A DNA stretch of 64,000 nt from a virus, in IMG/VR virus record IMGVR_UViG_3300024354_000013, positions 1-64,000 of that record. One strand, given 5' to 3'. Below the pieces are notes generated by a model that saw only the letters and a program-made list of their open reading frames with translations, had not been told where the DNA came from and did no database searches. Each line of letters starts with the position of its first letter. Positions within the stretch are counted from its first letter, which is position 1. Position numbers and translations under genes: made by a program. Positions 77 to 53,641 of this stretch are shown one piece after another.

Positions 77-898
77 ATGGAAAAGATATTCTATCAAAGC
101 TCATTGCCTAGAGCAGGAAGTACATTATTACAAAACATACTAGCTCAAAATCCTGATATATACGCTACACCTACAAGTGGTGTGTTAGAACTTATATTTG
201 GTGCACGTGCTAACTATACAAACTCAGCAGAGTTTAAAGCTCAAGATCCTGAGTTAATGAAAACAGGATGGCAAGCATTTGCTAAAGCTGGAATGGATGC
301 ATTCTACAATGCTGTTACAGATAAAAAATATGTGATAGATAAGTCTCGTGGATGGGGTATTCACTATGATTTCTTACAGTTTGTACAAGGTGGTGAACCT
401 AAAATCATTTGCATGGTTAGAGACCTACGTGATGTATTTGCTTCTATGGAGAACAACTTCAGAAAGCATCCTGAGAAGCAATCAGACATTTTGGATTGGT
501 CTAAAGGTCAAGGTACTACTGTACCAAAGCGTATTGATATCTGGTCACAGAATCCTCCTGTAGGACTAGCTATTGAAAGACTAGCTGAGATATTTAGACT
601 AGGTATTAATACTAAAATATTATTCATTAAATTTGAAGACCTATGTCTCTATCCAGAAACAGAGATGACAAGGATATATCAATACCTTGGTATACCACAC
701 TACCACCATGATTTTGATAACATTGAGCAAATTACTAAGGAGGATGATGAAGTGTATGGAGCATTTGGTGATCATGTCATTAGAACAAAGCTAGAGCCTG
801 TTCCTTCTAGAGCAAAAGCATTGTTAGGGAAAGATGTAGTTGATTGGATATACAACAACTACAAATGGTTTTATGACTATTTTAGATATTCAAAATGA
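77..898 (+). CDS. PAPS-dependent sulfotransferase
   Basis: This 273-residue protein has both cofactor-binding signatures of the sulfotransferase family. The 5'-phosphosulfate loop is LPRAGSTLL near residues 10-18, and the 3'-phosphate motif is MVRDLRDVFASM near residues 113-124. Such enzymes move sulfate from PAPS to a hydroxyl on a sugar, peptide or lipid. The length is normal for a soluble bacterial-type sulfotransferase and no signal peptide is seen. Its stop overlaps the start of an APS kinase, the enzyme that makes PAPS, so donor synthesis and use are probably co-expressed. The acceptor is unknown; nearby glycosyltransferases suggest a phage glycan or glycoprotein, which is inference. 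Confidence 0.85.
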   Translation: MEKIFYQSSLPRAGSTLLQNILAQNPDIYATPTSGVLELIFGARANYTNSAEFKAQDPELMKTGWQAFAKAGMDAFYNAVTDKKYVIDKSRGWGIHYDFLQFVQGGEPKIICMVRDLRDVFASMENNFRKHPEKQSDILDWSKGQGTTVPKRIDIWSQNPPVGLAIERLAEIFRLGINTKILFIKFEDLCLYPETEMTRIYQYLGIPHYHHDFDNIEQITKEDDEVYGAFGDHVIRTKLEPVPSRAKALLGKDVVDWIYNNYKWFYDYFRYSK

Positions 899-1338
899 TT
901 ATAGTGTTATTTGGACAGCCTAATTGTGGAAAGTCCACATTGGCTGATGCGCTTATAAAGGAAAGGTTTACTATTGTAAACATTGATGGAGACAAGCTCA
1001 GAGAGATATTTGTGAACAAAGATTACAGCAGAGAGGGGAGAATCAAGAATCTGAACAGGGCTAGTGATATTGCTACGTTCATGAGCACTATTGGGGATGA
1101 CATCATCCTATCTCTCGTATATCCATATAAGGAAGCTAGAGACTACCTCAACAGCTTGTGTGACTCTGTCTATTGGGTTTATTTGACATATGATGAGCCT
1201 AGAGGCAGGGAATCATTTCATGTAAAGGATTTTGAAGAGCCTGGAGATGATGAACGTGTTCTTCGTCTGAACACTTCTACAACATCCATAGAGGACTGTA
1301 TAACTAAAATAATGACACATGCAAAACTTCTTGGCTAG
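895..1338 (+). CDS. cysC: Adenylylsulfate (APS) kinase
   Basis: The P-loop GQPNCGKST lies at the N-terminus, followed by the APS kinase hallmarks IDGDKLRE, YSREGRIKNLNRASDIA and SLVYPYKEARDYL, and a C-terminal VKDFEEP that matches the family's substrate-lid region. The enzyme phosphorylates APS with ATP to give PAPS, the donor for sulfotransferases. At 147 residues it is slightly shorter than the usual 180-200. It overlaps the sulfotransferase stop by 4 bases and the next gene by 20 bases. A generic phosphotransferase is possible, but the motif series and the neighbour favour APS kinase. Confidence 0.8.
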   Translation: MIIVLFGQPNCGKSTLADALIKERFTIVNIDGDKLREIFVNKDYSREGRIKNLNRASDIATFMSTIGDDIILSLVYPYKEARDYLNSLCDSVYWVYLTYDEPRGRESFHVKDFEEPGDDERVLRLNTSTTSIEDCITKIMTHAKLLG

Positions 1339-1717
1339 ATCAGCAGGACCCACTTCTTCCAATGACAAGAAATATTCTATGTTTATAGGAAGATGGCAAC
1401 CCTGGCACGCTGGACACAGATGGTTAATTGACCAGAGACTCAATGAAGGAAAGAATGTCCTCCTCTGTATAAGAGATGTAGAACCAGATGAGAAGAATCC
1501 TTGGACCGCACATCAAGTGATGTTAAACTTATTCGATGAACTTAAAGACTTGGTTGAATCAGGAAGAGTTAGGGTTATTACTATACCTGATATTGAATCT
1601 ATTAATATTGGTAGGGGTGTTGGTTATGATGTCATAGAACACGTACCCCCTCAGGAGATACATGACATATCTGCTACAAAAATCCGTGAGCAAATGAAAG
1701 TAGAAGGTAAGCTATGA
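1319..1717 (+). CDS. Small HxGH nucleotidyltransferase (adenylyltransferase-like)
   Basis: The 132-residue protein carries the nucleotidyltransferase signature GRWQPWHAGH, an NPWTA segment resembling NadM-type enzymes, and ISATKIRE, equivalent to the ISSTxxR motif. These enzymes join ATP (or CTP) to a phosphate-bearing substrate. Placed between APS kinase and a DUF2061 protein, it might supply APS as a minimal ATP sulfurylase-like activity. That role is inferred from context only; NMN adenylyltransferase or a sugar-phosphate nucleotidyltransferase are alternatives. An internal ATG at 1379 begins directly at the HxGH strand and would remove the overlap with the upstream gene, so the start is uncertain. 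Confidence 0.7.
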   Translation: MQNFLARSAGPTSSNDKKYSMFIGRWQPWHAGHRWLIDQRLNEGKNVLLCIRDVEPDEKNPWTAHQVMLNLFDELKDLVESGRVRVITIPDIESINIGRGVGYDVIEHVPPQEIHDISATKIREQMKVEGKL

Positions 1718-1926
1718 CTGTAAGCAAGAAAAGACATATAGCCAAAACAATCAGCTACAGGATTGTCAGCACACTCATTGGGTTTGGTATTATGTGGCTA
1801 GTGACAGGAAGTGTGAAAATAGGAGCTGCATTTGGTGTAGCTGAGCTAGTGTACAAGCCTATACAATATTACCTACATGAGCGTATTTGGTATAAATGGA
1901 TTAGATATGGACTGAAGAAAGACTAA
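1714..1926 (+). CDS. DUF2061-like small membrane protein
   Basis: This 70-residue basic protein has two membrane segments (about 17-33 and 36-50) and the DUF2061 pattern KTISYRIVST...GFGIMW...AELVYKPIQYYLHERIW. I recall members of this family near sulfate-activation genes in bacteria, and here one overlaps the nucleotidyltransferase stop by 4 bases in the same cassette. Its molecular role is unknown. The 3' end overlaps the convergent epimerase gene by 26 bases. Confidence 0.75.
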   Translation: MTVSKKRHIAKTISYRIVSTLIGFGIMWLVTGSVKIGAAFGVAELVYKPIQYYLHERIWYKWIRYGLKKD

Positions 1927-2716
1927 GCATTGCTTTGTATTCTTCTAGCCCTTTCTCCAAATTGTATTTAGCTTCCCAACCAGGCATAAACAAATCAGCC
2001 TTGGTAAACATCTGATAGTTGTCAGGCATTTCAAACTTGAACTTGTATTTGAATGGTATATCCATTATCTCTAGAACATTCTCAAACGTTCTGGGCTCTC
2101 CTGTTCCTACATCAAACCATCCTCCTTTGAATTCATTGTAATGCTGCCAGGCATACAAATTTGCATCTACAACATCCTTTATATACACAAAGTCTCTCAC
2201 AGGTTGTCCTGGAAAGAGCATCACTTCTTCTCCAAGCTGATGTTTCTTATAAGATTGATGAGCAATAGAAGCCATGTTTCCTTTGTGCATTTCTCCTGGT
2301 CCATACACATTGAAATAACGTAGGGCCACTCCCTTGCTCTTTATTACAAACTCCTCTCCCAGAAACTTACTCCATGCATAGAGTGTTTCAGGACTTCCCT
2401 TTGTTCCATATATAGCAGCTGATGAACTATATATAATGGGAATGCCTCTGTGCTGACACCAGCTAGCAATGATGTTAGTGGAATGTACATTGAGCATAAG
2501 CATCTCATTGATGTCCTTGTTCTGTGTATCTGAACAAGCACCTACATGAAACACCACTTCTGGGTTCATGTCTACAAGATATTCTATAAGTCTATCCTGC
2601 CATCTGGCTCTATCAAATATCCATTTCTCAAGACCCTTTACAGTGTGCCCCTGTCTTTCAAGTTCTGTCTGTAAAGCTTTGCCAATAAATCCGTTGTTAC
2701 CTGTTACGCAGACCAT
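1901..2716 (-). CDS. hldD: HldD-like ADP-heptose 6-epimerase (NAD-dependent SDR)
   Basis: An extended-SDR epimerase with the NAD-binding GNNGFIGKAL at the N-terminus, SSSAAIYG, and the catalytic YAWSK. The segment RYFNVYGPGEMHKGNMAS followed by PVRDFVYIKDV matches ADP-L-glycero-D-manno-heptose 6-epimerase closely. That enzyme flips C6'' of ADP-D,D-heptose. I chose the ATG at 2716 (271 residues) because the Rossmann strand starts there; a start at 2764 would add residues outside the fold and overlap the methyltransferase more. HldE2- and HldE1-like genes lie at 7.2-8.3 kb. A related NDP-sugar epimerase is the main alternative. Confidence 0.78.
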   Translation of the reverse strand: MVCVTGNNGFIGKALQTELERQGHTVKGLEKWIFDRARWQDRLIEYLVDMNPEVVFHVGACSDTQNKDINEMLMLNVHSTNIIASWCQHRGIPIIYSSSAAIYGTKGSPETLYAWSKFLGEEFVIKSKGVALRYFNVYGPGEMHKGNMASIAHQSYKKHQLGEEVMLFPGQPVRDFVYIKDVVDANLYAWQHYNEFKGGWFDVGTGEPRTFENVLEIMDIPFKYKFKFEMPDNYQMFTKADLFMPGWEAKYNLEKGLEEYKAMLSLSSVHI

Positions 2717-3357
2717 ATGTGTATTATTATTTCTGTATAATATGCTAGGAATTCTTCTGACCAAACTCCTGCTGTGATGTCCACACCATCCAAGGAATAC
2801 ACCTTGAAATTTACATCATGTAAATATTCATCTCTAAACTTCTTGAATTTTTGTTTCAGAAGAAGATTGCTCAAATGCCATTCTCCAGCTATCTTCTTCA
2901 TATTGCTCAGTATCCATGGTTTGTTTTCTAGGGTGAATATGTCATACTCCCCACCCTCACAATCCATCTTAAGGAAGTCTATCCTACCAATATTGTAATC
3001 TTCAATCACCTGCTTAAAGGTGGTGCAATACGTAGATTCCCCCTGATCATCAAAGACAAACTCACCATCAAACTTACCTACATGTCCTGATATAGCTTTG
3101 TTGATACATGTAACAGGAGCGTGTCTTGTATTATACACCAGTGTCTTAAACTCTGAATAACTAGGCTCAAAACAGAACACGTGCTTTGGATGCTTATCTA
3201 GGATGGAATAGGTGAATATACCTATACTTGCTCCAATATCAAACACCACATCACCCTCTTCTACGGTGAAGCATTTCTCATATATCCTATCTACAAATGT
3301 TTCTCTCTTTACTGTCTCTATAAATATGGCGTCTGATGTTCCCCAATTAAATTCCAT
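2704..3357 (-). CDS. FkbM-family SAM-dependent methyltransferase
   Basis: A 217-residue class I methyltransferase with the SAM-binding motif VVFDIGASIGIFT, followed by FCFEPS and the FkbM-type DFLKMDCEGGEYDI. FkbM enzymes O-methylate sugar hydroxyls in natural products and surface glycans. It is sandwiched between the epimerase and the giant glycosyltransferase fusion, overlapping the latter's 3' end by 40 bases, so it is probably co-translated and acts on the same glycan. The substrate is unknown. Confidence 0.85.
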   Translation of the reverse strand: MEFNWGTSDAIFIETVKRETFVDRIYEKCFTVEEGDVVFDIGASIGIFTYSILDKHPKHVFCFEPSYSEFKTLVYNTRHAPVTCINKAISGHVGKFDGEFVFDDQGESTYCTTFKQVIEDYNIGRIDFLKMDCEGGEYDIFTLENKPWILSNMKKIAGEWHLSNLLLKQKFKKFRDEYLHDVNFKVYSLDGVDITAGVWSEEFLAYYTEIIIHIWSA

Positions 3358-6300
3358 GATTGTATTTTTTTAATTACGTCTTCAGATTTAATAGATGTCT
3401 GACATTCCCATTGTCTGTCTGTTCCTTTATGCACAGGACACCAGTTCCAATCTCCTGCATCAAATCTGTATTCAGCTTTGTTCCAGCATCCATGACATAC
3501 ATTCTCATTAGTAATTCTAATACAGCTAAACTCATGGTCAGCAGCTGTAAAGTTACTAATCATTACCACTTGTTTATTCAGAGCCCAAGCTAACCAGCTT
3601 AGCCCACTGGATAGTCCTATAAAGAACTCACTGTGATGGATAACATTCATGGTGTTCTCCATAGATGTATCTTCAAGCTGTTCACAATTGTCAAAAGGAT
3701 TCTTCTCCTTGGACACATTAACTATCTTATATCCATTCTCATGTAAGAAGTTGATGGTGAGCTGCCAGTCTTCCTTCTGCCAAAACTTACATCCAGCCGT
3801 TGAATTAGTGGCTATTGTAACATATCTACCATATGAATTGTTACCAGGTGTAAAGGCTAAACGTGGTCTAATCTCTTGAAAATCAAGACCTAAGATGTTG
3901 GTTGCTGTCTGTTGGAGGGGAATAGTATTACACAAAGCTGGCTCCTTATTACCATCATAGAACCAACCCACACTGTACATACCAAGGATGTTACCTACAC
4001 CTGTTCCTGGTTCTACAAACTCAAGCTCTGGATAGACACTCTCAAATAGGAAGTTCTTAAATGTGCTCACTGTTACATGGCAATTGTGCTTCCTCTTGAA
4101 CTCAAGTACATATGGCATCCATGCAATTGTGTCTCCTAGTGATTTGCTATCCATAGCTATATAGACACGCTGGCCCTCATAATTGAGTGTATACTCATAG
4201 TATATACTTTCATCCTTCCACACCTTGATGGTCCATTTGGTAAACCATCTCCTGTTGAGCTTCACCCAGTGATTCACCTTTATCTTGTTCTCATAGTGAC
4301 ACACACCCTGCTCATCATAAAATCTGACAGTGAAGGTGCTTTTGGAATTACCTGTTATCTCTAGGAATGGCTCGTGTATAAATGTGTGGGTGATATTAAT
4401 CAGTTCTTTGTCAGGCTGTATGGGTCTATTCATCACCTCCTGATACAGATCAATATGCTTCTGTGCGAAATCAAGCTTCTGTCCTTCAGGAATATCGTAG
4501 CTCACATCTGTATCTAACAGCTGGGTGAGCTGTTCTTTCATCTTTTCAGGCTTCAGATCTGTAATATACTGAGTGAACATGTCTCCATACTGAGGAAGAT
4601 TTCTTGCCAGGATTGGCAGTCCATATCCTATAGCTTCTCTAATCACCAGTGGATTGCATTCAAATGTACTGTTAAACAGGAACACATCTGCAGCTGCCAT
4701 AAACCTACCCACATCATCACGCTCTCCCCATACATGTACATTAGGTGGTATGTCCTTCATAATGGGTTCCCAGTAGTGCTGGAAGTTACCAGCCTGATTA
4801 CCTACAAAGTGGAATTGTACATCTGGCATTTGTCTAGCCAGCTCTACAGCTTCTCCTTGGTTCTTACCAGCAGTCCATAGTCCTACATTAAGCACATGTT
4901 TACCAGGTCCTAGATCTATGGGCTCAGATTCTTTCTTCACGATAGGAAACTCAATCACCTCCTTTCTAGAAGGCATATTAGCAAACGTCTTTAGATGGTG
5001 TGGTGTACAGAACGCATATGCATCTGGATGATAGCGCTTCTCTAAGTCTGGCTTGAACACAATGTTGTGACATGTTTCAATCATCCTCCAGGTTCTATTT
5101 GGACTGTACAGCGCTTGTCTCACCTCTTCTGGCCAGTTGTTCCAGCCATCTTCCACCATCTCATCCACATGCACTATATCTACAGCATGTCTTTTGATGA
5201 TATCAATCACCTCCATCTTATTCTCTCCCAAGGTGTAGAAGTGGTGGGCTATTTCCTTTATCTGATTCTTCTGGACAACAAAGTGATCACTGTGGTTGGA
5301 ATACTCCACAACAATAATCTTAGATTTGGAATAGGCCAACAGATCTGCTATTCTCTCTAAAAGGAAGGCAGGCATTCCACCTGTCGATAGATGTGGTGCC
5401 AGGAATAATATCTTAAGCTGATTCTTCTGGCGCTCTAACATTCTGTACATAGTGACAGCATCCTTTTCTCCGTGATAGAATAGTAACTGGTCTACATCTG
5501 CAGGCACAGCTACAAAATGTGCTAGGTGCTGCTTCTTAGTTCTGAATGTGACATTATTCACTGTGTTCAAGGATCCATTCATGTATATGTATGGTAGTCC
5601 ATCTAATGCCTTGTACTTCCACAGAAGCACGTTAGCTATAGTTTCCTCATGATAGGGAGCATAGTATTGTGGATTCTGTAACACCTTGGGATGGTTACAC
5701 ATCCACCACCAACTGTCAAGGAATTCTTGACAGTATTCACCAGCTACAAAATATCCTGTTTGTCTGTATTTATCTCTGATGTATTGATCTACACCAAACA
5801 GCTCACAAGCTGGATGTTCAAGAGTAGTGGATAGGTCATCTCTACTATCAGCCCCACCTCTTCCATTGCTGATCATCCATTCATATATTCCCTCTGTAAA
5901 ATACGGATAGGCACTCTTCACTGGGAAATAGTCAAATATTCTGTCTACATACTTGGTAGCCACACTATCACTATCCACATAGGCCACTGTTTTAGCATGC
6001 TTTAACGCTTCTTTAACAATTAGTGGGCGCTGGATGAGGATGTTGTAAATGTCTGGATTAGCTCTGTCTATATACTTCTGCTGAGGAAGATCCTTGGTTT
6101 TACAATCCCAACGGAATGTAGCAGCTCCCTTTATATCCACATCTGAGTTGAGCATATAAACCATAACAGGTAGACTGCTAAAGGTTCTAAGAGAATCTAC
6201 GCACGCCTGCACAGTGTCCTTATAGCTCTCTGTAGCATATAAGACATATGCTTTTTCCCATCTAATGTCCTGATTTACATAGTATCCATACCACTGGTTG

Positions 6301-6770
6301 TCATATAGCTTCTCCAGTCCTGGGTAACGCTCTAGCATCACCTCTGGTGTTAGATCTGCCTGGTGGTGGGTTTCATACTCATTTCCATACTCTGCTCCAT
6401 CCTGAGCCATCATATAGGGCACAGCTACAAGAAACCTCTTGTCCATCAGGTCAAAGTCTGTAAGCAGGTTTTTAGCTGTGCCTGAGGGTAGGTGTTCTAG
6501 AATATCCCCTAAGATGATAAAGTCATAGGGTCTAACATCAAAGGTGACAATATCCCCTACATAAACATTATCATATTTAGCTCTCAGATTGAACTGATCT
6601 ACATATGGAGCCCATATCTCTACAGCATCCATCCTATATCCTAAATTCCTTAGCAAATCAGAATATGTTCCCTGTCCAGGACCTACATCTAGAATGCGTG
6701 TTGATAGGGGAATATTGTCTATAAACCACTGCTTTATTTCAGGCTTGAAGTAGGTGTAACTGTTTGGCAT
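3318..6770 (-). CDS. Four-module fusion: methyltransferase, GT-A, GT4, O-heptosyltransferase
   Basis: This is the longest protein of the window (1150 residues from the ATG at 6770). Module 1 (about 1-180) is a SAM methyltransferase with ILDVGPGQGTYSDLL. Module 2 (about 185-440) looks like a GT-A transferase with AYVDSDS as DxD. Module 3 (about 455-790) is GT4-like with FLAPHLSTGGMP and ECNPLVIREAIGYGLP. After a beta-rich linker, module 4 (about 890-1150) is GT9-like and carries the cysteine cluster CHGCWN...GDWNWCPVHKGT...WEC, characteristic of iron-binding autotransporter O-heptosyltransferases (TibC/BAHT), which glycosylate proteins with heptose from ADP-heptose. A consensus promoter (6791-6822) lies just upstream of this start. 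Confidence 0.85.
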   Translation of the reverse strand: MPNSYTYFKPEIKQWFIDNIPLSTRILDVGPGQGTYSDLLRNLGYRMDAVEIWAPYVDQFNLRAKYDNVYVGDIVTFDVRPYDFIILGDILEHLPSGTAKNLLTDFDLMDKRFLVAVPYMMAQDGAEYGNEYETHHQADLTPEVMLERYPGLEKLYDNQWYGYYVNQDIRWEKAYVLYATESYKDTVQACVDSLRTFSSLPVMVYMLNSDVDIKGAATFRWDCKTKDLPQQKYIDRANPDIYNILIQRPLIVKEALKHAKTVAYVDSDSVATKYVDRIFDYFPVKSAYPYFTEGIYEWMISNGRGGADSRDDLSTTLEHPACELFGVDQYIRDKYRQTGYFVAGEYCQEFLDSWWWMCNHPKVLQNPQYYAPYHEETIANVLLWKYKALDGLPYIYMNGSLNTVNNVTFRTKKQHLAHFVAVPADVDQLLFYHGEKDAVTMYRMLERQKNQLKILFLAPHLSTGGMPAFLLERIADLLAYSKSKIIVVEYSNHSDHFVVQKNQIKEIAHHFYTLGENKMEVIDIIKRHAVDIVHVDEMVEDGWNNWPEEVRQALYSPNRTWRMIETCHNIVFKPDLEKRYHPDAYAFCTPHHLKTFANMPSRKEVIEFPIVKKESEPIDLGPGKHVLNVGLWTAGKNQGEAVELARQMPDVQFHFVGNQAGNFQHYWEPIMKDIPPNVHVWGERDDVGRFMAAADVFLFNSTFECNPLVIREAIGYGLPILARNLPQYGDMFTQYITDLKPEKMKEQLTQLLDTDVSYDIPEGQKLDFAQKHIDLYQEVMNRPIQPDKELINITHTFIHEPFLEITGNSKSTFTVRFYDEQGVCHYENKIKVNHWVKLNRRWFTKWTIKVWKDESIYYEYTLNYEGQRVYIAMDSKSLGDTIAWMPYVLEFKRKHNCHVTVSTFKNFLFESVYPELEFVEPGTGVGNILGMYSVGWFYDGNKEPALCNTIPLQQTATNILGLDFQEIRPRLAFTPGNNSYGRYVTIATNSTAGCKFWQKEDWQLTINFLHENGYKIVNVSKEKNPFDNCEQLEDTSMENTMNVIHHSEFFIGLSSGLSWLAWALNKQVVMISNFTAADHEFSCIRITNENVCHGCWNKAEYRFDAGDWNWCPVHKGTDRQWECQTSIKSEDVIKKIQSWNLIGEHQTPYL

Positions 6771-6790
6771 AACTGATTGGCTTTCTGTTA

Positions 6791-6822
6791 CAAAGATAGA
6801 AAAAAGATTTGGTAGTTTCAAA
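6791..6822 (-). promoter_or_regulatory. Bacteroidota-type promoter for the leftward glycan operon
   Basis: On the minus strand TTTG (6822-6819), a 20-base spacer and TATCTTTG (6798-6791) match the TTTG/TAnnTTTG consensus exactly. The site overlaps the rightward promoter at 6808-6839, so polymerases would compete for the same DNA. The inferred transcription start is about 15 bases before the ATG at 6770. Confidence 0.8.
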
Positions 6823-6839
6823 TAAATTACATAGATTTG
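6808..6839 (+). promoter_or_regulatory. Bacteroidota-type promoter for the cupin-heptose operon
   Basis: TTTG (6808-6811), a 20-base spacer and TAGATTTG (6832-6839) match the consensus exactly. The inferred transcript starts near 6844, about 30 bases before the cupin ATG at 6876. An in-frame ATG at 6837 lies inside the promoter and is unlikely to be translated. Confidence 0.8.
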
Positions 6840-6875
6840 CCCCACAAGTGGAGTGTATCCACTTTATGCTATATT

Positions 6876-7223
6876 ATGCACGAACTACATAAAGTTGAGA
6901 AGGGTTGGGGTCACGAACTCTGGATCCATAACTCCCCAGAATACTGCGGAAAACTGCTGGTTTTCAAGGCTGGCAAGAAGTTCTCAATGCACTTCCACAA
7001 GATAAAGCAGGAGAGCTGGTATGTAAGCAAAGGGTCCTTCCAATATACATGGGTGGACATGTCTACAGGCACCCTCTATACAGACTATCTGAAGGAAGGA
7101 GATGCTCTAACCATTATGCCCTACCACCCTCACCAGCTGGAAGCTCTAGAAGATGGCATCATATTTGAGGTGAGTACACAACACTTTGATGAAGATAGCT
7201 ACAGACTATGGAAGGGGGACTAA
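6876..7223 (+). CDS. Cupin sugar-phosphate isomerase-like protein
   Basis: A single-domain cupin of 115 residues. It begins KVEKGWGHELW, the usual opening of type II phosphomannose isomerase-like cupins, and has metal-site motifs FSMHFHKIKQESWYV and, later, YHPHQLEA. Such proteins isomerise sugars or bind sugar phosphates. It overlaps the HldE2-like gene by 16 bases. The window has no recognisable GmhA, so this cupin could supply the heptose-7-phosphate isomerase step; that is inference. The start at 6876 is chosen because the promoter ends at 6839. Confidence 0.72.
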   Translation: MHELHKVEKGWGHELWIHNSPEYCGKLLVFKAGKKFSMHFHKIKQESWYVSKGSFQYTWVDMSTGTLYTDYLKEGDALTIMPYHPHQLEALEDGIIFEVSTQHFDEDSYRLWKGD

Positions 7224-7618
7224 GGGTATGGGTGAATGGAGCATTTGATGTCCTGCATATAGGGCATATTCAACTCCTTAAAAGAGCTAAAGAGTTTGGT
7301 AGTGTGAGAGTGGGTGTTGATAGTGACGCACGTGTTGCAGAATTAAAAGGTGATAGTAGACCATTTAACAAGCTGTCTGACAGAATAGATTTCCTGAAGA
7401 GCATTAGGTATGTGGATGAGATAGTATCATATGATTCTGAGGAAGAGCTCACCAACCAAATCAAACTTTATGAACCAGACATCATGGTGATAGGATCTGA
7501 CTACATGGGAAAAAGAATAGTGGGGGCTGAATATATAACACAGATAGTATTCTTTGACAGAATAGAACATAAATCAACTACATCAATATTAGGGTATGAA
7601 GCTGGTGGTAATAGGTGA
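7208..7618 (+). CDS. HldE2-like heptose 1-phosphate adenylyltransferase
   Basis: A 136-residue nucleotidyltransferase with NGAFDVLHIGH (HxGH), VGVDSDARV, LKGDSRPFNKLSDR and IGSDYMGKRIVG, ending HKSTTSIL. LKGDSRP and the DY..K..VG segment are typical of the RfaE2/HldE C-terminal domain, which makes ADP-D-glycero-beta-D-manno-heptose from heptose 1-phosphate and ATP. The kinase gene follows with a 23-base overlap, so the two halves of bacterial HldE are split and reversed in order here. A glycerol-3-phosphate cytidylyltransferase is less likely but related. Confidence 0.8.
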   Translation: MEGGLRVWVNGAFDVLHIGHIQLLKRAKEFGSVRVGVDSDARVAELKGDSRPFNKLSDRIDFLKSIRYVDEIVSYDSEEELTNQIKLYEPDIMVIGSDYMGKRIVGAEYITQIVFFDRIEHKSTTSILGYEAGGNR

Positions 7619-8336
7619 TGTCTGCAAGGATGTCTTCATCTATGGAGACTGTAAACGCTTAAGTCCAGAAGCACCTGTACCTGTATTTAATCCAGTGGAA
7701 ACAATAGAGAACTCAGGAATGGCTGGTAACGTGGTAGCCAATCTAAGTGCTATCAACCCCAACCTGCAGATAAATTTCCATCACAACTTTGAGAACATTA
7801 CCAAAACCAGGTATGTAGATAAGAAGACCAATCACCTTTTCCTAAGAGTGGACGATGAGCCAAAGGTGAATAGAATATTCCTCACAGCTCAGCTTATTGA
7901 GGATGTAGAAACTGCAGATGCTGTGATTGTGAGTGACTATGACAAGGGATATCTAACAGAAGATGACCTGCAATATATAGCTGTTAAAGCTAAGTGGTCC
8001 ATCTTAGACAGCAAGAAGCATTTAAAACCACACACCATATCAAACTATTCATTCATCAAACTGAATGAATCTGAATACAATAAAAACAAACAGTCTCTAA
8101 TTTACATGAGAGACAAAGTGATAGTGACACTTAGTTCCAAAGGAGCAATGCATAAAGATGTTACATACAGCTCCCCAAGTCCAAAAGAAACTATAGATGT
8201 AAGTGGTGCAGGAGATACGTTCGTTGCAGCATTTACAATTAAATACTTGGAAACCAAAGACATATCTACGTCTATTGAATATGCCAATCTTATGTCATCT
8301 ATTGTGGTGGGTAAGAGAGGTGTTGTAACCCCATAA
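7596..8336 (+). CDS. HldE1-like heptose 7-phosphate kinase (PfkB family)
   Basis: This 246-residue ribokinase-fold protein starts IGDVCKDVFIYGDCKRLSPEAPVPV, and SPEAPVPV is a hallmark of the HldE kinase domain. GMAGNVVANL follows, and the catalytic PfkB signature DVSGAGDTFVAAF sits near residue 200. The reaction is phosphorylation of D-glycero-D-manno-heptose 7-phosphate at O1. It is shorter than the usual 310-residue domain. A hairpin terminator lies just downstream. No heptose bisphosphate phosphatase (GmhB) is visible in the window. Confidence 0.8.
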   Translation: MKLVVIGDVCKDVFIYGDCKRLSPEAPVPVFNPVETIENSGMAGNVVANLSAINPNLQINFHHNFENITKTRYVDKKTNHLFLRVDDEPKVNRIFLTAQLIEDVETADAVIVSDYDKGYLTEDDLQYIAVKAKWSILDSKKHLKPHTISNYSFIKLNESEYNKNKQSLIYMRDKVIVTLSSKGAMHKDVTYSSPSPKETIDVSGAGDTFVAAFTIKYLETKDISTSIEYANLMSSIVVGKRGVVTP

Positions 8337-9647: not shown

Positions 9648-10243
9648 ACCTAGAGAAACTGAAAGGACATATACCAGATGATGTGATTGCACAAATCCCT
9701 GAGGTGGGAGAGAAGTTTCAAATCAATTCTCCTCTCAGACTAGCCCATTTCCTTGCACAGTGTGGACATGAGAGTGGTGGGTTTAAATTCAAATCAGAGA
9801 ACCTCAACTACTCAGCTGAAATCCTCAGAAAGGTGTTCCCTAAATACTTCCCAGACATTGTTGTAGCTAAGCAATACGAGCGTAAGCCAGAAGCTATTGC
9901 TAGCAGAGTGTACGGAGGGCGTATGGGTAATGGTCCTGAGGCTTCAAAAGAGGGGTTCAAGTACAAGGGTCGTGGCTTCATCCAACTCACAGGGAAGCAG
10001 AACTACACTGCATTTGATGCTACAGTGCCTGAAGATATACTAGCTAATCCAGACTTGGTAGCCACTAAATACCCCCTACTTTCAGCAGCCTGGTTCTGGA
10101 ATAGCAGGAAGCTGAACAGCATAGCTGATCAGGGAGCAACGGATGAAGTGGTTACCAAGATTACCAAGCTGGTAAACGGTGGCACCATAGGACTAGCAGA
10201 TAGGATTAAACACTTCAAAGAATATCATAAACTGTTAGGATAA
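9644..10243 (+). CDS. GH19 family endolysin
   Basis: This 199-residue muralytic enzyme shows the glycoside hydrolase 19 signatures. CGHESGGFK carries the proposed catalytic Glu near residue 43, followed by YSAEIL..FPKYF, and the signature KYKGRGFIQLTGKQNY near residues 106-121. GH19 phage enzymes cleave peptidoglycan glycan strands. There is no signal peptide, so export would need a holin, and the holin-like gene lies upstream. The length matches a catalytic domain with no binding domain. Confidence 0.9.
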   Translation: MNLEKLKGHIPDDVIAQIPEVGEKFQINSPLRLAHFLAQCGHESGGFKFKSENLNYSAEILRKVFPKYFPDIVVAKQYERKPEAIASRVYGGRMGNGPEASKEGFKYKGRGFIQLTGKQNYTAFDATVPEDILANPDLVATKYPLLSAAWFWNSRKLNSIADQGATDEVVTKITKLVNGGTIGLADRIKHFKEYHKLLG

Positions 10244-10626
10244 TGGCAAACGCTCAACCTAAACCCAAACCTAAAAGATCTAGGAGATCTGGACTTAAGA
10301 AAGCCAAGCTTATTAAGAAAAACATTGATGTGATCTATAATTTATGGACACAGATGAACGCTCAACAGCTTACAATCATCATCATTATTATAGGGTTGTT
10401 TATAAGCAGTTGTGCTAATGTTAAATATGTTTATGTTGACCCCAAAGACTCAGTGGTGAGAAGACAGAGAGTAGTATATGACAACTATATAGCACCTAGT
10501 CCTTTTTATGATCCGTTCTTTAGGCCCTATTTCTGGGGACCTAGACAGATTATAATTGTACCTAGAAACCAGCCCCAAAGACCAGGATTTGGTCCATTGC
10601 CCCCAACACCTAAACCCCGTAGATAA
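10243..10626 (+). CDS. Proline-rich lipoprotein, candidate outer-membrane spanin
   Basis: From the ATG at 10354, the product begins MNAQQLTIIIIIIGLFISSC, a signal peptide with lipobox ISSC, followed by a proline- and arginine-rich region ending PPTPKPRR. Lipoproteins of this kind next to an endolysin are typical o-spanins. The full frame from 10243 adds 37 basic residues, which would place charges far before the hydrophobic segment, so the true start may be 10354 (90 residues). Confidence 0.6.
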   Translation: MANAQPKPKPKRSRRSGLKKAKLIKKNIDVIYNLWTQMNAQQLTIIIIIIGLFISSCANVKYVYVDPKDSVVRRQRVVYDNYIAPSPFYDPFFRPYFWGPRQIIIVPRNQPQRPGFGPLPPTPKPRR

Positions 10627-10627
10627 A

Positions 10628-10933
10628 ATGGCTACATCGAAAAAAGGAGTGAGCGTATCAGCCAATCCTCTTCCAATATCCTTTAAAGACTTTGCAAAGA
10701 ATCCTGTAGTGGGCACCCTGTTTCTGGTGCTCATTGCTATTTCCTACCTGTATATAGACATTCGTTCTACATTCCAAGATCAAGCTAGAAAGCAAGATGC
10801 TCGCATTGAGAAGGTGGAAGGAAGACTAGACCTTGTACAGGATGCCCTAAGAAGAAGTGACAGTGCTAAGGCTGTAACAAGTACACAGCTTAGGACCCTT
10901 CAAGAACTAGGAGCCATCAAAAAAGTTAACTGA
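10628..10933 (+). CDS. Membrane-anchored coiled-coil protein, candidate inner spanin
   Basis: This 101-residue protein has one membrane segment (about 29-45, VGTLFLVLIAISYLYI) and then a long charged coiled-coil helix. That is the topology of an i-spanin. The ATG at 10628 follows the lipoprotein stop by 2 bases, and its stop overlaps the next lipoprotein start. Pairing with the upstream or downstream lipoprotein is inferred from position. Confidence 0.6.
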   Translation: MATSKKGVSVSANPLPISFKDFAKNPVVGTLFLVLIAISYLYIDIRSTFQDQARKQDARIEKVEGRLDLVQDALRRSDSAKAVTSTQLRTLQELGAIKKVN

Positions 10934-11265
10934 TGAAACAACTTTTACCCATAATCCTTATAGTTTTCTATTCTTGCCAATCTGGTAATGCTCAAAAGGT
11001 AGACCCTACACTTGGTGAAGATAGAGAGTTTGAGGAGTTTATGAAACAAGTGAATTATAATCAAGCAGTTGCAGCAAAAATACAAGCTGAAGCTGCCAAA
11101 AGCCAAACCAAACTAGTAGAACAAACAGTATCCAAAATTGTCACCCTCAAAACTGAGGTGACAACATTAAAAACAGAACTCAACGATGTTAAACAAAAGC
11201 TTGATAGCGTTACTGCTGACACTGGGAACACTTACAGGGTGGTCCCAATCGACCACTTACCCTAA
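10933..11265 (+). CDS. Coiled-coil lipoprotein
   Basis: A signal peptide with lipobox FYSC (Cys15) is followed by a helical coiled-coil region rich in Lys, Glu, Ala and Thr. It could be a second spanin component or an outer-membrane lipoprotein active in lysis. Its 3' end overlaps the next gene by 80 bases in another frame, an overlap reminiscent of nested spanin genes. Confidence 0.6.
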   Translation: MKQLLPIILIVFYSCQSGNAQKVDPTLGEDREFEEFMKQVNYNQAVAAKIQAEAAKSQTKLVEQTVSKIVTLKTEVTTLKTELNDVKQKLDSVTADTGNTYRVVPIDHLP

Positions 11266-11587
11266 AACCAAAAGGATAGGACAGGACTCTGTCGTAATAA
11301 TAACCATCAAGCAAGCTGACCAAATTAATGATACATTCCGTCTTTACAAAGACAGCATAGCATTAACCATAGACAGCATAATAAAACAGAAAAAACTATT
11401 AGACAGCCTCAGGTTGGAACATTACAACCTAAAGAACGCTCCAAATGAATACAAATGGAAGTATGAGGCCAATAGGGAGATCTACTTCAAAAGAGAAGAG
11501 TCTATAAAGAGGGATGAGAAATACCATTTCCTTCAGAAGATAATGCTTGTAGGTCTTGTTGTATTCTTATTCTCTCAATTAAAATAA
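11186..11587 (+). CDS. Secreted helical protein with C-terminal membrane anchor
   Basis: This 133-residue protein starts with a signal-like segment (SLIALLLTLGTLTGWSQS), continues with charged helical sequence and ends in a hydrophobic segment (IMLVGLVVFLFSQL). Exported at both ends, it might bridge the periplasm or be a membrane-inserted lysis accessory. It begins inside the preceding lipoprotein gene. Function not recognised. Confidence 0.55.
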   Translation: MLNKSLIALLLTLGTLTGWSQSTTYPKTKRIGQDSVVIITIKQADQINDTFRLYKDSIALTIDSIIKQKKLLDSLRLEHYNLKNAPNEYKWKYEANREIYFKREESIKRDEKYHFLQKIMLVGLVVFLFSQLK

Positions 11588-11592
11588 ACCAC

Positions 11593-11724
11593 ATGGCAAA
11601 AGCAAAAACCAGCAAAGGAGAAGCTACAAAGATCTCCTTTGGCAAAAGAAAGAAGGGCAAAGCTCAGAAAACTCAGGGTCCTAAAGACAAACCAGTGAGC
11701 AAGTATAGGGGGCAAGGAAGATGA
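11593..11724 (+). CDS. Lysine-rich small protein (43 residues)
   Basis: It opens MAKAKTSKGEATKISFGKR and ends KYRGQGR; nearly a third of residues are basic. The start resembles those of the lysine-rich proteins encoded at 15.3-17.7 kb. Its stop and the next ATG form an ATGA junction, which supports expression. Confidence 0.5.
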   Translation: MAKAKTSKGEATKISFGKRKKGKAQKTQGPKDKPVSKYRGQGR

Positions 11725-11864
11725 AAAAGATCCTATCCCTAATAGTGTTAGGTTGGGTAACCGTGGCATTATTCATACAGCTTACATTCGTAACACTGTC
11801 TTTCACAAACCCTGATAAGGCTACACAGCTGGCTAGAAGAATGATGAACACCATCTCTAACTAA
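11721..11864 (+). CDS. Small membrane protein (47 residues)
   Basis: One strong membrane segment (about 4-28) and a short polar tail. It starts in an ATGA overlap with the upstream small gene and is followed at once by a terminator, so it closes the lysis operon. Function unknown. Confidence 0.5.
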   Translation: MKKILSLIVLGWVTVALFIQLTFVTLSFTNPDKATQLARRMMNTISN

Positions 11865-11882
11865 GTTAGTTAGAGTCGTTTT
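11855..11882 (+). terminator. Terminator of the lysis operon
   Basis: CTCTAACT (11855-11862) and AGTTAGAG (11868-11875) form an 8-pair hairpin with a 5-base loop, followed by TCGTTTT. The stem overlaps the last codons of the small membrane protein. Confidence 0.7.
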
Positions 11883-11915
11883 AATCAATCTTGTTATTGT
11901 AATTTGTTGAGGCTC

Positions 11916-11953: not shown

Positions 11954-12601
11954 ATGGCCATACCATCCCGTCAGATAGGCTGGGGCACACAGGACAACCT
12001 GCTGTGGCAGATTGCAAAGCAACTGGAGGGAGCCTCTTGTCAGCTCTGTACGTTGAATGATAACATAGCCACTATTACAGGCACCTCTGGTACAAGTGGG
12101 ACTAGTGGTGTTAGCGGATCTAATGGTACATCAGGTACCAGTGGGCTTTCTAGTTTTAAATACGGATCTTTCTATAGCACTGTGGATCAATCACTTGCAA
12201 AGGATGCTATAGGACCTTTTACATTTAACAACACAGACCTAAGTAATGGTGTTAGTGTGGTTTCTAGTTCAAGAATTACACTGGCTAACGCTGGTAAATA
12301 CAACATCCAGTTTAGTGCACAGTTTCATCACATAGGTGGTGGAGGATCTGGGGAAACAGTGAACATATGGCTTGCTAAAAACGGCTCAGATATAGCTGAC
12401 TCAAACACAAGACTCACTATCACCTCTAGTACTAAGTATAGTGTGGCAGCCTGGAACTTCTTTGTAGATGCTTCAGGAGGAGACTATTATGAAATCATCT
12501 GGTCTACAGATAATGCCAATATAAAAATAGAACATGAGGCTGCTGGTGTGCATCCTGCTATACCATCAATAATTTTAACAGTCAATCAAATAGGAATATA
12601 A
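11954..12601 (+). CDS. Putative virion appendage protein with GTSG repeats
   Basis: The 215-residue protein has three parts. An N-terminal module (1-36) has MAIPSRQIGWGT...LLWQIAKQLEG and ends CQLC. A low-complexity region of GTSG-type repeats (about 42-70) follows. The C-terminal domain (about 72-215) is beta-rich and resembles C1q/TNF-like jelly rolls seen in phage tail fibres and capsid decorations (ANAGKYNIQFSAQF, VNIWLAKNGSDI). It is probably a surface-exposed structural protein. The N-terminal module is repeated in the next gene. Ser/Thr in the linker could be glycosylated, which is inference. Confidence 0.6.
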   Translation: MAIPSRQIGWGTQDNLLWQIAKQLEGASCQLCTLNDNIATITGTSGTSGTSGVSGSNGTSGTSGLSSFKYGSFYSTVDQSLAKDAIGPFTFNNTDLSNGVSVVSSSRITLANAGKYNIQFSAQFHHIGGGGSGETVNIWLAKNGSDIADSNTRLTITSSTKYSVAAWNFFVDASGGDYYEIIWSTDNANIKIEHEAAGVHPAIPSIILTVNQIGI

Positions 12602-12817: not shown

Positions 12818-13834
12818 ATGAAGGATTTAAAGTATGTTTGTGTTCAGCCTGACGACACCTATTACACATGGCAGGTGCATTTATGGTTGGAGAGCCTTAG
12901 AAAAAGAAACGAATCTGACAAGGCTATTGTTCTTATATTCATTCCTAATTACAGAGAAAAGAATCCAAAATGGCAACAGGTGATTGACCTGTATCCAGAA
13001 GCTGAGTTTCATTTCTACAAGGATGAACATGATGTGAGTCAATTGTTAGGAATCTACATTCCTGTATTAAGACCTTATACTCTCTGGAGACACTGGAAAG
13101 AGCATCCAGAACTAAGTGATAAGGCAATATTCTACTGTGACTCAGACATCCTCTTTACAGAGAAGTTTGATGTTCAAAAGTACATAGATGACGATGTTTG
13201 CTATCTCTCTGAAACTACAAGCTACATAAGCGCTGCATATTTTGACAGCAAGGTGAAGGATGTCCTTCCTGAGAAGCTGGAAGAATACAAGACAAGAGAT
13301 ATTCTTGCAGAAATTGGTAGTGTGATTGGCATAAGTAGGGAGGAAGCAGAAGCTAAGAACAATGACTCTGGTGGAGCTCAATACCTCCTTAAGAATGTAG
13401 ACTCTAAGTTCTGGAACAAGGTGATGAATGACTGCATCCTCATTAGGAGTTATCTACAGAAAGTGAACAAAGAATATTTTGAGAACGAAAACAAAGGATT
13501 CCAAAGCTGGTGTGCTGATATGTGGGCTGTGCTGTGGAACCTGTGGGTGAGAGAAAAAGAAGTGAAGGTGATTGAAGAAATGGGATTCAGCTGGGCCCCA
13601 GATCCTGTCACTAAGCTTGAAACACACCCCATCCTTCATAATGCAGGAATTGTAAGCACATCTATGGATGGTTACAATTGCTTCTATAAAGGTAAATACC
13701 ACCAAGGAACAGATCCTTCAAAGGATGAACACTTGGATGCTGTACTAAATGATGAGAAATCAAAGACAAGGTGCACATGGTATTACACAAACGAATTAAA
13801 AAATCTTTTTAACAAATATAACCTAAACTATTAA
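12818..13834 (+). CDS. GT-A glycosyltransferase, possibly protein O-linked
   Basis: This 338-residue protein has a nucleotide-sugar transferase fold with the DxD motif FYCDSDILF near residue 110 and a second conserved patch SWCADMWAVLWNLW near residue 230. The pattern resembles peptidyl-serine galactosyltransferase or hydroxyproline arabinosyltransferase relatives, though that is a recalled similarity and not a search result. It sits between genes for three proteins with Thr-rich tails, so those are attractive acceptors. It is cytoplasmic, with no signal peptide. Confidence 0.72.
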   Translation: MKDLKYVCVQPDDTYYTWQVHLWLESLRKRNESDKAIVLIFIPNYREKNPKWQQVIDLYPEAEFHFYKDEHDVSQLLGIYIPVLRPYTLWRHWKEHPELSDKAIFYCDSDILFTEKFDVQKYIDDDVCYLSETTSYISAAYFDSKVKDVLPEKLEEYKTRDILAEIGSVIGISREEAEAKNNDSGGAQYLLKNVDSKFWNKVMNDCILIRSYLQKVNKEYFENENKGFQSWCADMWAVLWNLWVREKEVKVIEEMGFSWAPDPVTKLETHPILHNAGIVSTSMDGYNCFYKGKYHQGTDPSKDEHLDAVLNDEKSKTRCTWYYTNELKNLFNKYNLNY

Positions 13835-30724: not shown

Positions 30725-32263
30725 TTAATCAACAATCATCTGCACCCTAGAGCTGATTTCATCTCTCATGTGGTCAAGAGACTGAACAATATTCTCAATC
30801 TCCACAGTGGAAATGTGAGGAATGTTGAACTCATGCTTCTTAGACTCAGCTACAAAACCATCCTTGGCCTTCTCTGACAAGCTCTCAAGCTCACGAATAG
30901 CGTAGCTATCATCTAGTTGAAGAGTATCAAAATCTAGGTCATGTAGGATTTCTGTAGCTTCCTCTCTAGGAACAGTCATGATTGGGAGATATTCCCAGCA
31001 CCTGCCCTTAGATTCACCAATACCAACCACCTTCATAGGATTGATTAATACAAGCACAGATTGATCACCACAGCCTACATAATGAATCTCGTCAGATGTG
31101 AAATGCAAACCTTCTGCACCACAATCATCTGTGTTCCATCTACACTTACCTGGATCCATGTTTACAGGCTTACCAACACGAATATCAAATGTGCGTGTAT
31201 GAGCATCTGTAAATCTATTCTCTGCCCTATTAGGTAAATCTAGATAGAGATCTGTCAAACCTCCAATCTTCTCACCATACTCACTGTCATTATAATCATA
31301 ACGATCACCATCACCATCACACGTACCACATGCTGTATACTCATTCTCCTCCTCATCCCACATTTCACCAGTACCATCACAGTCTTCACATGTTACAACT
31401 TTATTAAGGTCTTTGTTATCCACTATTCTATACTCACCATCCTTGAGAAACACTGTATATTCATTTGGACTCTTCTTCCATACAGCTTTCACCTTGTTGT
31501 AAGCATTACTCACGAATTGTACAAGCTCAGTACTACCGTGGAGCGTTACTACGTTCCTCAGTGCAACAAAGAATCCTTGCTTGGTGATCTTAAAGCTATT
31601 CTTCTTGAGGAAGTTGTATAACTTGTCAGCCACCTCAGCACGAGGATTCAGACAGCACCACATAAAGAAGCGCTTCAGAGACTGATATTCCTCGTCAATA
31701 GACAAAGACCAACGATTTCCATTGTGTCTGTTCACTATACGAAGGAACTCCTCAACAAGAAGTTGTGGAAGTGTGCGGTTGATACCATACAGATAAACAC
31801 TATTCCCCTTCACCTCAAAATCATTCAGCTCAGCCAGTAGTTTAATACCAGCCTGTAGCGCTCTAACTCTCTCAGCTTCATGCTCTTGTTTCTTTCTCTC
31901 TGTAACCACCTCTTGAACAGCCATAATGTCTATAATCTCATATTCATCTATAGCACTACGAACATCCTCAAAATCCTGTGTTGTAGCATTTGGCTTAGAT
32001 AGGATGGACCCATCGTTAAGCACCACAGTGAGCACATTATTCACAAGCTTTACATTCTTGTAGGACTTTGTAGCTACACCTCCTGTGTTGGTGTTCACAG
32101 TCCAATTGTATGTCTTTTCTGCAGCAGGTAATGTCGCAGATGTTGCAGATGTTGCTTGAAACAATTCTTTTCTTAGGAGCTCATTCTTTATTCTTTGCTC
32201 CTCCACCTGTAATTCATCAAGTTCTCTTTGTTTTTTTGATTTGAACCAGTTTAATGTAAACAT
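30725..32263 (-). CDS. rIIB-like protein with DnaJ-type zinc finger
   Basis: 512 residues. It follows the rIIA-like gene, as in T4-type phages, and shares the long rIIB-like layout: LKNVKLVNN-type N-terminal strand region, LYNFLKKNSFKITKQGFFVALRNVV in the middle and a C-terminal WEYLPIMTVPREEA block. Between them is CEDCDGTGEMWDEEENEYTA followed by CGTCDGDGD, two CxxCxGxG units that should bind zinc. rII proteins counter host exclusion systems and affect lysis; the exact role here is inferred from homologues. Confidence 0.7.
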   Translation of the reverse strand: MFTLNWFKSKKQRELDELQVEEQRIKNELLRKELFQATSATSATLPAAEKTYNWTVNTNTGGVATKSYKNVKLVNNVLTVVLNDGSILSKPNATTQDFEDVRSAIDEYEIIDIMAVQEVVTERKKQEHEAERVRALQAGIKLLAELNDFEVKGNSVYLYGINRTLPQLLVEEFLRIVNRHNGNRWSLSIDEEYQSLKRFFMWCCLNPRAEVADKLYNFLKKNSFKITKQGFFVALRNVVTLHGSTELVQFVSNAYNKVKAVWKKSPNEYTVFLKDGEYRIVDNKDLNKVVTCEDCDGTGEMWDEEENEYTACGTCDGDGDRYDYNDSEYGEKIGGLTDLYLDLPNRAENRFTDAHTRTFDIRVGKPVNMDPGKCRWNTDDCGAEGLHFTSDEIHYVGCGDQSVLVLINPMKVVGIGESKGRCWEYLPIMTVPREEATEILHDLDFDTLQLDDSYAIRELESLSEKAKDGFVAESKKHEFNIPHISTVEIENIVQSLDHMRDEISSRVQMIVD

Positions 32264-32281
32264 GTTGTTTGTTTTTGAATT

Positions 32282-53322: not shown

Positions 53323-53641
53323 AAAAACTACATACGTAAATGCTGAGCTTGATTGGGCAGAACAACAGCTTTCCTCCTGGAAGGCGTATGTTGATGCCAA
53401 TCCCCTGCATGAACTTAAAGATAGGATTGAGTGGAAACCTACAGCCAAAGGAGGCATGCTTCCCATGGTGATTGCATCAATCGAAGCACAAGGTAAGTTT
53501 ATACAGGAAACAATGAAGAACTACTTGGCTCTTCTAGAGGTGGTGGAGAAACTAAGAGAGAAGGAAGAAGCTAAAGTGGAAATCAGAGGCAATGGAGAAC
53601 TAAGCTCCATGGCTGAGGACTTCCTTAAGAGCAGACGATAA
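53306..53641 (+). CDS. Possible small terminase subunit
   Basis: 111 residues, helical, with a central amphipathic region (IEAQGKFIQETMKNYLALLEVVEKL) and a basic end SMAEDFLKSRR. It directly precedes and overlaps the large terminase by 1 base, the usual TerS position. No HTH is certain, so the name rests on context. Confidence 0.45.
   Translation: MAKTIKKTTYVNAELDWAEQQLSSWKAYVDANPLHELKDRIEWKPTAKGGMLPMVIASIEAQGKFIQETMKNYLALLEVVEKLREKEEAKVEIRGNGELSSMAEDFLKSRR

Follow-up and report, generated by a model that had tools for sequence, protein, structure and literature searches.

Which molecule receives the sugar, when a phage carries ADP-heptose-type genes beside a TibC-like O-heptosyltransferase? 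This question is raised by positions 1901–8336 of a 64,000-nucleotide stretch (the window), which is positions 1 to 64,000 of the IMG/VR virus record IMGVR_UViG_3300024354_000013, a 110-kb record of an aquatic phage. A previous reading made from the nucleotides only (the sequence-only reading) had proposed that the phage makes its own ADP-heptose and puts heptose on a protein, possibly its virion. The motifs and open reading frames (ORFs) named there were all found at their positions. In the explanation that we consider probable, the locus is a protein-glycosylation island, in which a BAHT-type transferase without the TibC thumb heptosylates the phage's own collagen-like tail proteins, glycosyltransferases (GTs) extend the sugar, methyl or sulfate groups cap it, and the heptose cassette supplies ADP-heptose. 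The features of the locus are as follows.

1901–2716, minus strand: HldD-like ADP-heptose 6-epimerase (ATG start at 2716; TIGR02197; best PDB match E. coli HldD, 1eq2)
2704–3357, minus strand: FkbM-family methyltransferase (TIGR01444, 61.4 bits, above the cut-off of 37.7; adjoins or is fused to BAHT in several sibling loci)
3318–6845, minus strand: four-domain glycan-assembly protein of 1175 amino acids (aa) (Pfam and NCBIfam; equal architecture in 22 fetched sibling loci)
3321–4343, minus strand: BAHT (TibC-like O-heptosyltransferase) domain of this protein (TIGR04414, residue mapping, AlphaFold2 model, Foldseek)
6837–7223, plus strand: metal-type cupin (phrog_7851; Lyx_isomer match), a candidate aldose-ketose isomerase replacing GmhA
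7208–7618, plus strand: HldE2-like heptose-1-phosphate adenylyltransferase (HIGH motif; TIGR02199; phrog_7878)
7596–8336, plus strand: HldE1-like compact heptose-7-phosphate kinase (SPEAPVPV, GAGDTF; TIGR02198; phrog_8133)

The 1175-aa protein consists of a methyltransferase domain (residues ~45–121), a GT-A-like domain (~205–485, so named from our own reading of the sequence), a GT4 domain (~480–800) and the C-terminal BAHT domain (~835–1175). The sequence-only reading mentioned neither the four-domain organization nor the FkbM methyltransferase gene inside the interval. The BAHT domain scored 259.6 bits against TIGR04414 (263.9 bits in the genome search), above the curated cut-off of 200. 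The AlphaFold2 model of the domain has a pLDDT of 86.9. According to Foldseek, the template-modelling (TM) score is 0.79–0.85 with TibC and only 0.4–0.5 with WaaC, and the model has the TibC fold including the N-terminal beta domain. The residue roles in TibC were taken from PMC4358343. The catalytic Asp (D110 of TibC) corresponds to D905, and the donor residues T226, K230 and W305 are also present; in TibC, phosphate and heptose are bound by these three (PMC4358343). The iron finger is retained with the TibC spacing (C1117, C1120, C1136 and C1148 for Cys 339, 342, 358 and 370 of TibC). The Asp, the three donor residues and the four cysteines are invariant across 62 distinct phage homologues. 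These results indicate that the domain is of the TibC/BAHT type, as the sequence-only reading had claimed. The identity as a lipopolysaccharide (LPS) heptosyltransferase (WaaC/WaaF) was rejected, because the TM score is only 0.4–0.5 with WaaC, against 0.84 with TibC.

In TibC, a beta-hairpin thumb (F265/V266) builds the active dodecamer (PMC4358343). In the tree of BAHT enzymes, the thumbed bacterial sequences fall into a single group with full support, which includes neither the phage enzymes nor nine thumbless bacterial ones. A GT4-type ORF with the common LSTGGMP motif is located beside BAHT or fused to it in several BAHT lineages. This arrangement suggests that the glycan is at least a disaccharide. 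The FkbM methyltransferase would probably O-methylate the glycan. Some phage contigs contain two BAHT-type ORFs (L064, at 9812–11909; G063; G095).

No adjoining autotransporter substrate was recognized among the neighbouring genes scanned; the genes present there are glycan genes and those for collagen-like tail proteins. Thus, the term 'autotransporter-type' used in the sequence-only reading is right for the fold and wrong for the partner. Compared with TibC and AAH of E. coli, the window enzyme shares the fold, the catalytic Asp, the Thr/Lys/Trp donor residues, the four-Cys iron finger and the N-terminal beta-strand domain. At the P300 position of TibC it has Ser; this residue is shared with AAH, an enzyme that can use either ADP-D,D- or ADP-L,D-heptose (PMC4358343). 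The window enzyme differs from them in that it is thumbless, has Thr in place of R286, is fused to GT4, GT-A-like and methyltransferase domains, is encoded by a phage, and is located near collagen-like tail proteins and not an autotransporter. Two such proteins of the record are candidates for the acceptor.

Record positions 103025–105742, outside the window: tail-fibre-like repeat protein of 905 aa with 213 Thr and 205 Ser, the main candidate acceptor
11954–12601, plus strand: collagen-like minor-tail-like protein, (GTS)n, with 8 consecutive G-X-Y triplets (phrog_30509, 'collagen like minor tail')

The 905-aa protein, of which the second part was compared, matches Pfam Collagen and tail-fibre PHROGs, and proteins related to it match collagen and tail-fibre families as well. 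The product of 11954–12601, with its short run of triplets, is a smaller candidate within the window.

Giant Gly-Ser/Thr-Ser repeat ORFs were found beside the operon in several kinase-linked BAHT loci, and this finding prompted association tests. ORFs with (Gly-X-Ser/Thr)n repeats are located within 10 kb of BAHT in 38 of 60 de-duplicated phage clusters, and in none of 56 phage clusters with HldE1 only, which are sugar islands too; within 8 kb, the numbers are 35 and 0 clusters. The BAHT loci counted here are not independent, as the initial BAHT search was biased towards the window's close relatives. In bacteria, the repeats accompany eight of the nine thumbless BAHT loci and none of the 71 thumbed ones (Fisher p 3e-10). 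In the reverse search, TIGR04414 was detected in 18 of 50 contigs chosen solely by the (GTS)4 DNA pattern, and in one of 50 contigs with Gly-Pro-X repeats (p 1.4e-5). For contigs of at least 60 kb, BAHT was present in 13/18 and 1/15, respectively. These comparisons use a repeat pattern defined after the first examples, many contigs that are fragments, and control sets from other phage lineages. Over 58 BAHT loci, position X of the repeat is 50% Thr, 32% Ser and about 4% Pro, and position Y is 70% Ser. In two Methylobacter genomes, a thumbless BAHT gene lies directly downstream of a collagen-like gene (L089, 6932–9152; L090, 7019–9221).

A search of 50,697 phage records gave a BAHT match in one named isolate only, Microcystis phage Mel-JY01. 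Its BAHT gene is annotated only as 'methyltransferase FkbM'. A Gly-Thr/Ser-Ser repeat ORF of 1016 aa is located upstream of this gene, and shorter repeat stretches are located just downstream. The 1016-aa ORF (L085; PP395634.1, 2–3052) is unannotated on its coding strand, because antisense coding sequences named 'hypothetical' were called over it. A literature search for Mel-JY01 returned no paper.

The donor is considered from the three sugar enzymes. The HldD-like protein scored 179.4 bits against TIGR02197 (cut-off 274.6), and the next non-heptose family scored 42 bits; HKGxMAS and YxxxK are present. The HldE2-like protein scored 99.0 bits against TIGR02199 (cut-off 181.5), and HxGH is present. 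The next unrelated function, glycerol-3-phosphate cytidylyltransferase (71.2 bits), was rejected for 7208–7618, as it scores below HldE2. The HldE1-like protein scored 125.4 bits against TIGR02198 (cut-off 345), followed by ribokinase as the next unrelated function at 45 bits; GAGD is present. Thus, the HldD, HldE2 and HldE1 assignments of the sequence-only reading agree with the best family in each case, whereas none of the three proteins reaches the equivalog cut-off. Profile search, which that reading had proposed as a check, did not place the enzymes in unrelated sugar pathways. Compared with the HldE1, HldE2 and HldD of Gram-negative bacteria, the phage enzymes share the best-matching families and the key motifs, but they differ in the sub-cut-off scores, in a kinase that falls short of the model length by about 70 aa, and in an HldE split into two proteins.

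The pathway differs from the bacterial one also in the absence of GmhA and GmhB, which the sequence-only reading had correctly noticed, and in the presence of a cupin, to which sibling cassettes add a HAD phosphatase of 100 aa. GmhA (SIS_2) was not found in the whole 110-kb record, and neither GmhB nor the small HAD phosphatase of the sibling cassettes was found there. The cupin is a plausible candidate isomerase in place of GmhA, because the GmhA reaction is an aldose-ketose isomerization of a manno sugar. It matches Pfam Lyx_isomer with 23.4 bits (gathering threshold 20.8) over 28 residues only. The metal ligands H51, H53, E58 and H98 are invariant, which makes a complete metal site. In the fold search, oxalate decarboxylase ranks first, and D-lyxose and phosphomannose isomerases rank lower. 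Cysteine dioxygenase, the name of phrog_7851, has no support from Pfam or NCBIfam and was rejected.

The BAHT gene separates the cassette of the window into two parts. By contrast, the genes for the kinase, HldE2, HldD, the cupin and the 100-aa HAD phosphatase stand together beside the same BAHT gene in the sibling contigs L002, L004, L005 and L046. Prochlorococcus phage P-TIM68 has the same set of kinase, HldE2, cupin and HAD, and the HAD is labelled phosphoheptose isomerase. This protein (L086, 12742–13080; YP_009213707.1) was rejected as GmhA; it is a small HAD with DxDGT, weakly like the EcbF-BcbF capsule phosphatase. The cyanophage cassettes, like those described here, hold kinase, HldE2, cupin, HAD phosphatase and sugar epimerases in a single cluster. 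They differ in that P-TIM68 has no BAHT match, and in the absence of Gly-Thr/Ser-Ser repeats from the HldE1-only clusters described above.

The linkage between BAHT and the heptose genes recurs. In the kinase-based locus search, the alignment query gave more than 580 loci and the single-sequence query only 2. BAHT was present in the fetched flank of 13 of 82 phage loci. The kinase-linked BAHTs occupy well-separated parts of the BAHT tree: a crAss-like part (L169, L170), a part with L176, L181, L182 and L184, a part with L187, and a T4-like part (L203, L210, L214, L215, L224 and L229). Adjacency of BAHT to HldE2 or HldE1 is seen at four or more separate points of the tree (at least three besides the crAss-like one). 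The T4-like loci have the gene order GT4-BAHT-HldE2-HldE1, and terminase and portal lie a few genes away. In the 50 BAHT-bearing records, an HldE2-type match was found in four and an HldE1-type match in two. The heptose cassette is therefore an accessory of BAHT phages.

These results are consistent with protein glycosylation, and virion proteins are the likely target; the recurrent linkage and a likely acceptor class, the collagen-like repeats, bear out this part of the sequence-only reading. We infer the donor, the acceptor, the chain extension and the physiological role as follows. The thumbless TibC-like domain would transfer heptose, probably derived from ADP-heptose, onto Ser/Thr hydroxyl groups of the (Gly-Thr/Ser-Ser)n tail proteins. 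The sugar would then be extended by the two fused domains, GT4 and GT-A-like, and capped by methyltransferases, perhaps together with the sulfotransferase. The HldE1-, HldE2- and HldD-like enzymes would raise the ADP-heptose supply in the infected cell. The cupin may isomerize sedoheptulose-7-phosphate, and the host would provide the missing steps (GmhB, possibly GmhA). Dense O-glycans may stiffen and shield the proline-poor collagen-like fibre. Loss of the thumb would fit a substrate that is no longer a rigid beta-helix processed within a ring but an extended fibre.

Several observations weigh against this explanation, and its weakest step is ADP-heptose as the donor, which we regard as probable. 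R286 of TibC contacts adenine, and its mutation abolishes or largely diminishes the activity (PMC4358343). The corresponding residue is Thr in the window and Arg in one of the 62 phage homologues; among bacterial homologues, 87 of 94 have the Arg. The donor may therefore not be ADP-heptose. The thumb is missing from the window enzyme and from 54 of the 62 phage homologues, where a gap takes its place. The three sugar enzymes score below their cut-offs, GmhA and GmhB were not found in the record, and heptose genes were not detected in most BAHT phages. Mel-JY01 matched neither HldE1 nor HldE2 in the profile search, and heptose is reported absent from the LPS of cyanobacteria, its host group (PMC4390846). 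TibC modified Ser, not Thr (PMC4358343), whereas Thr accounts for about half of the residues at X in the repeats. The repeats and the glycan genes may also co-reside in a hypervariable tail-fibre region for other reasons. Thus, of the proposal that phage-made ADP-heptose is put on a protein, the part retained is a TibC-type enzyme linked to heptose-type genes in unrelated phages; ADP-heptose is a probable donor only, and the pathway is incomplete.

The BAHT-like domain might glycosylate the collagen-like tail proteins with another activated sugar, the heptose cassette serving another GT or glycan of the island. The adenine-reading Arg is lost in 61 of the 62 phage homologues and kept in all thumbed bacterial ones, and this use of another sugar would also agree with the many BAHT phages without heptose genes, and with Mel-JY01, which has BAHT and repeats without HldE1 or HldE2. 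However, T226, K230 and W305 are invariant, and several unrelated phages have BAHT adjoining HldE2 or HldE1, with no gene in between in the T4-like group. We consider the use of another sugar rather unlikely. A small chance is given to the association of BAHT with repeats as a by-product of common lineage or of the hypervariable tail-fibre region, without an enzyme-substrate relation. The weighting of the fetched loci to close relatives of the window, with their non-independent counts, and the repeat pattern defined after viewing the first examples are on its side, but the association recurs in distant BAHT lineages and in bacteria, and it also appears in the search begun from the repeats.

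It is improbable that the island serves to alter LPS or exopolysaccharide on the host surface, for instance to keep out other phages. Glycosyltransferases and rfaE-type genes of pelagimyophages are so interpreted (PMC7029224), HldE1, HldE2 and HldD are LPS-core enzymes in bacteria, and 69 of the 82 heptose-cassette phage loci have no BAHT in the flank. Nevertheless, the transferase belongs to a protein-modifying family and not to the WaaC group, according to the TM scores, the co-occurrence with Ser/Thr-rich collagen-like tail proteins is not a trait of heptose phages without BAHT, and some BAHT operons are near structural genes. As phage glycosyltransferases often act on DNA, the phage DNA was also considered as a target. 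But the relatives of BAHT are protein O-glycosyltransferases, the association is with proteins, and no base-hypermodification gene turned up among the proteins scanned, whose annotation is not exhaustive; glycosylation of DNA is very improbable.

The remaining features near the locus are as follows.

77–898, plus strand: sulfotransferase (PF13469; 24 fetched sibling loci), a possible glycan decoration enzyme, conserved near BAHT
895–1338, plus strand: APS-kinase-like P-loop kinase (PF01583; 26 fetched sibling loci), adjoining the sulfotransferase and conserved
1319–1717, plus strand: CTP_transf/NMNAT-like nucleotidyltransferase (profile matches; 15 fetched sibling loci), adjoining the kinase and conserved
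12818–13834, plus strand: phrog_4417 protein, GT-A-like (23 fetched sibling loci), on the far side of the BAHT gene

In many sibling contigs, the first three genes (77–1717) stay together near BAHT as a conserved trio; they may encode a module for sulfate activation and transfer, or one of the phosphoramidate type. The phrog_4417 protein has a similar position relative to BAHT in its sibling loci, and its GT-A-like description is our own reading of a DSD motif. The terminase (53641–55668) and the major head protein (60220–61773) of the record were recognized. The phage is crAss-like, because its terminase is closest to those of Leptolyngbya phage Lbo-JY46 (39%) and Cellulophaga phi17:2, which we take to be crAss-like phages. 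RIIA- and RIIB-like genes are adjacent at 30725–34582 of the window. The record has no exact terminal repeat of 15–200 bases. A GT gene at its far end (L084, 5093–5959) is the counterpart, with 63% identity, of the gene directly before the sulfotransferase in L170. Therefore, we infer that the record is a permuted circle, its end joining the window start.

Parts of the proposed system have precedents. BclA of Bacillus anthracis carries O-glycans on Gly-X-Thr repeats of its collagen-like region, and in this respect it resembles the candidate acceptors. TibC-type enzymes and a heptose cassette are not known from the BclA system or from the mycobacteriophages. Virion proteins of mycobacteriophages are glycosylated, according to the citation of Freeman et al. 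(2023) in PMC12619734, and they would share with the present case a sugar on phage virion proteins. A064R of chlorovirus PBCV-1 is a GT-GT-methyltransferase polypeptide that builds the virion glycan, and L230 of mimivirus glucosylates a viral collagen-like protein (PMC9614988). A064R is similar to the window protein as a virus-encoded polypeptide with GT and methyltransferase, and L230 is similar in placing a sugar on a viral collagen-like protein. Both differ in belonging to eukaryotic viruses, in their GT families, and in the N-glycan or hydroxylysine linkage. Thus, TibC is the precedent for the first sugar, A064R for the polypeptide, and L230 and BclA for the collagen-like acceptors. No report of a phage BAHT, or of its pairing with Gly-Thr-Ser repeats, was found in the literature searched, subscription papers being mostly outside its reach.

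More generally, and tentatively, the thumbless BAHT branch of unrelated tailed phages and a few bacteria may be a dedicated O-glycosylation system for proline-poor (Gly-Thr/Ser-Ser)n fibres, to which several phages may bring a compact ADP-heptose pathway with a cupin for GmhA and a 100-aa HAD for GmhB. If the proposed explanation is true, TibC-type protein heptosylation would be extended from bacterial autotransporters to phage virions, and some 'LPS' sugar genes of aquatic phages would obtain a function. It would also hint at how proline-poor collagen-like tail fibres are stabilized and shielded.

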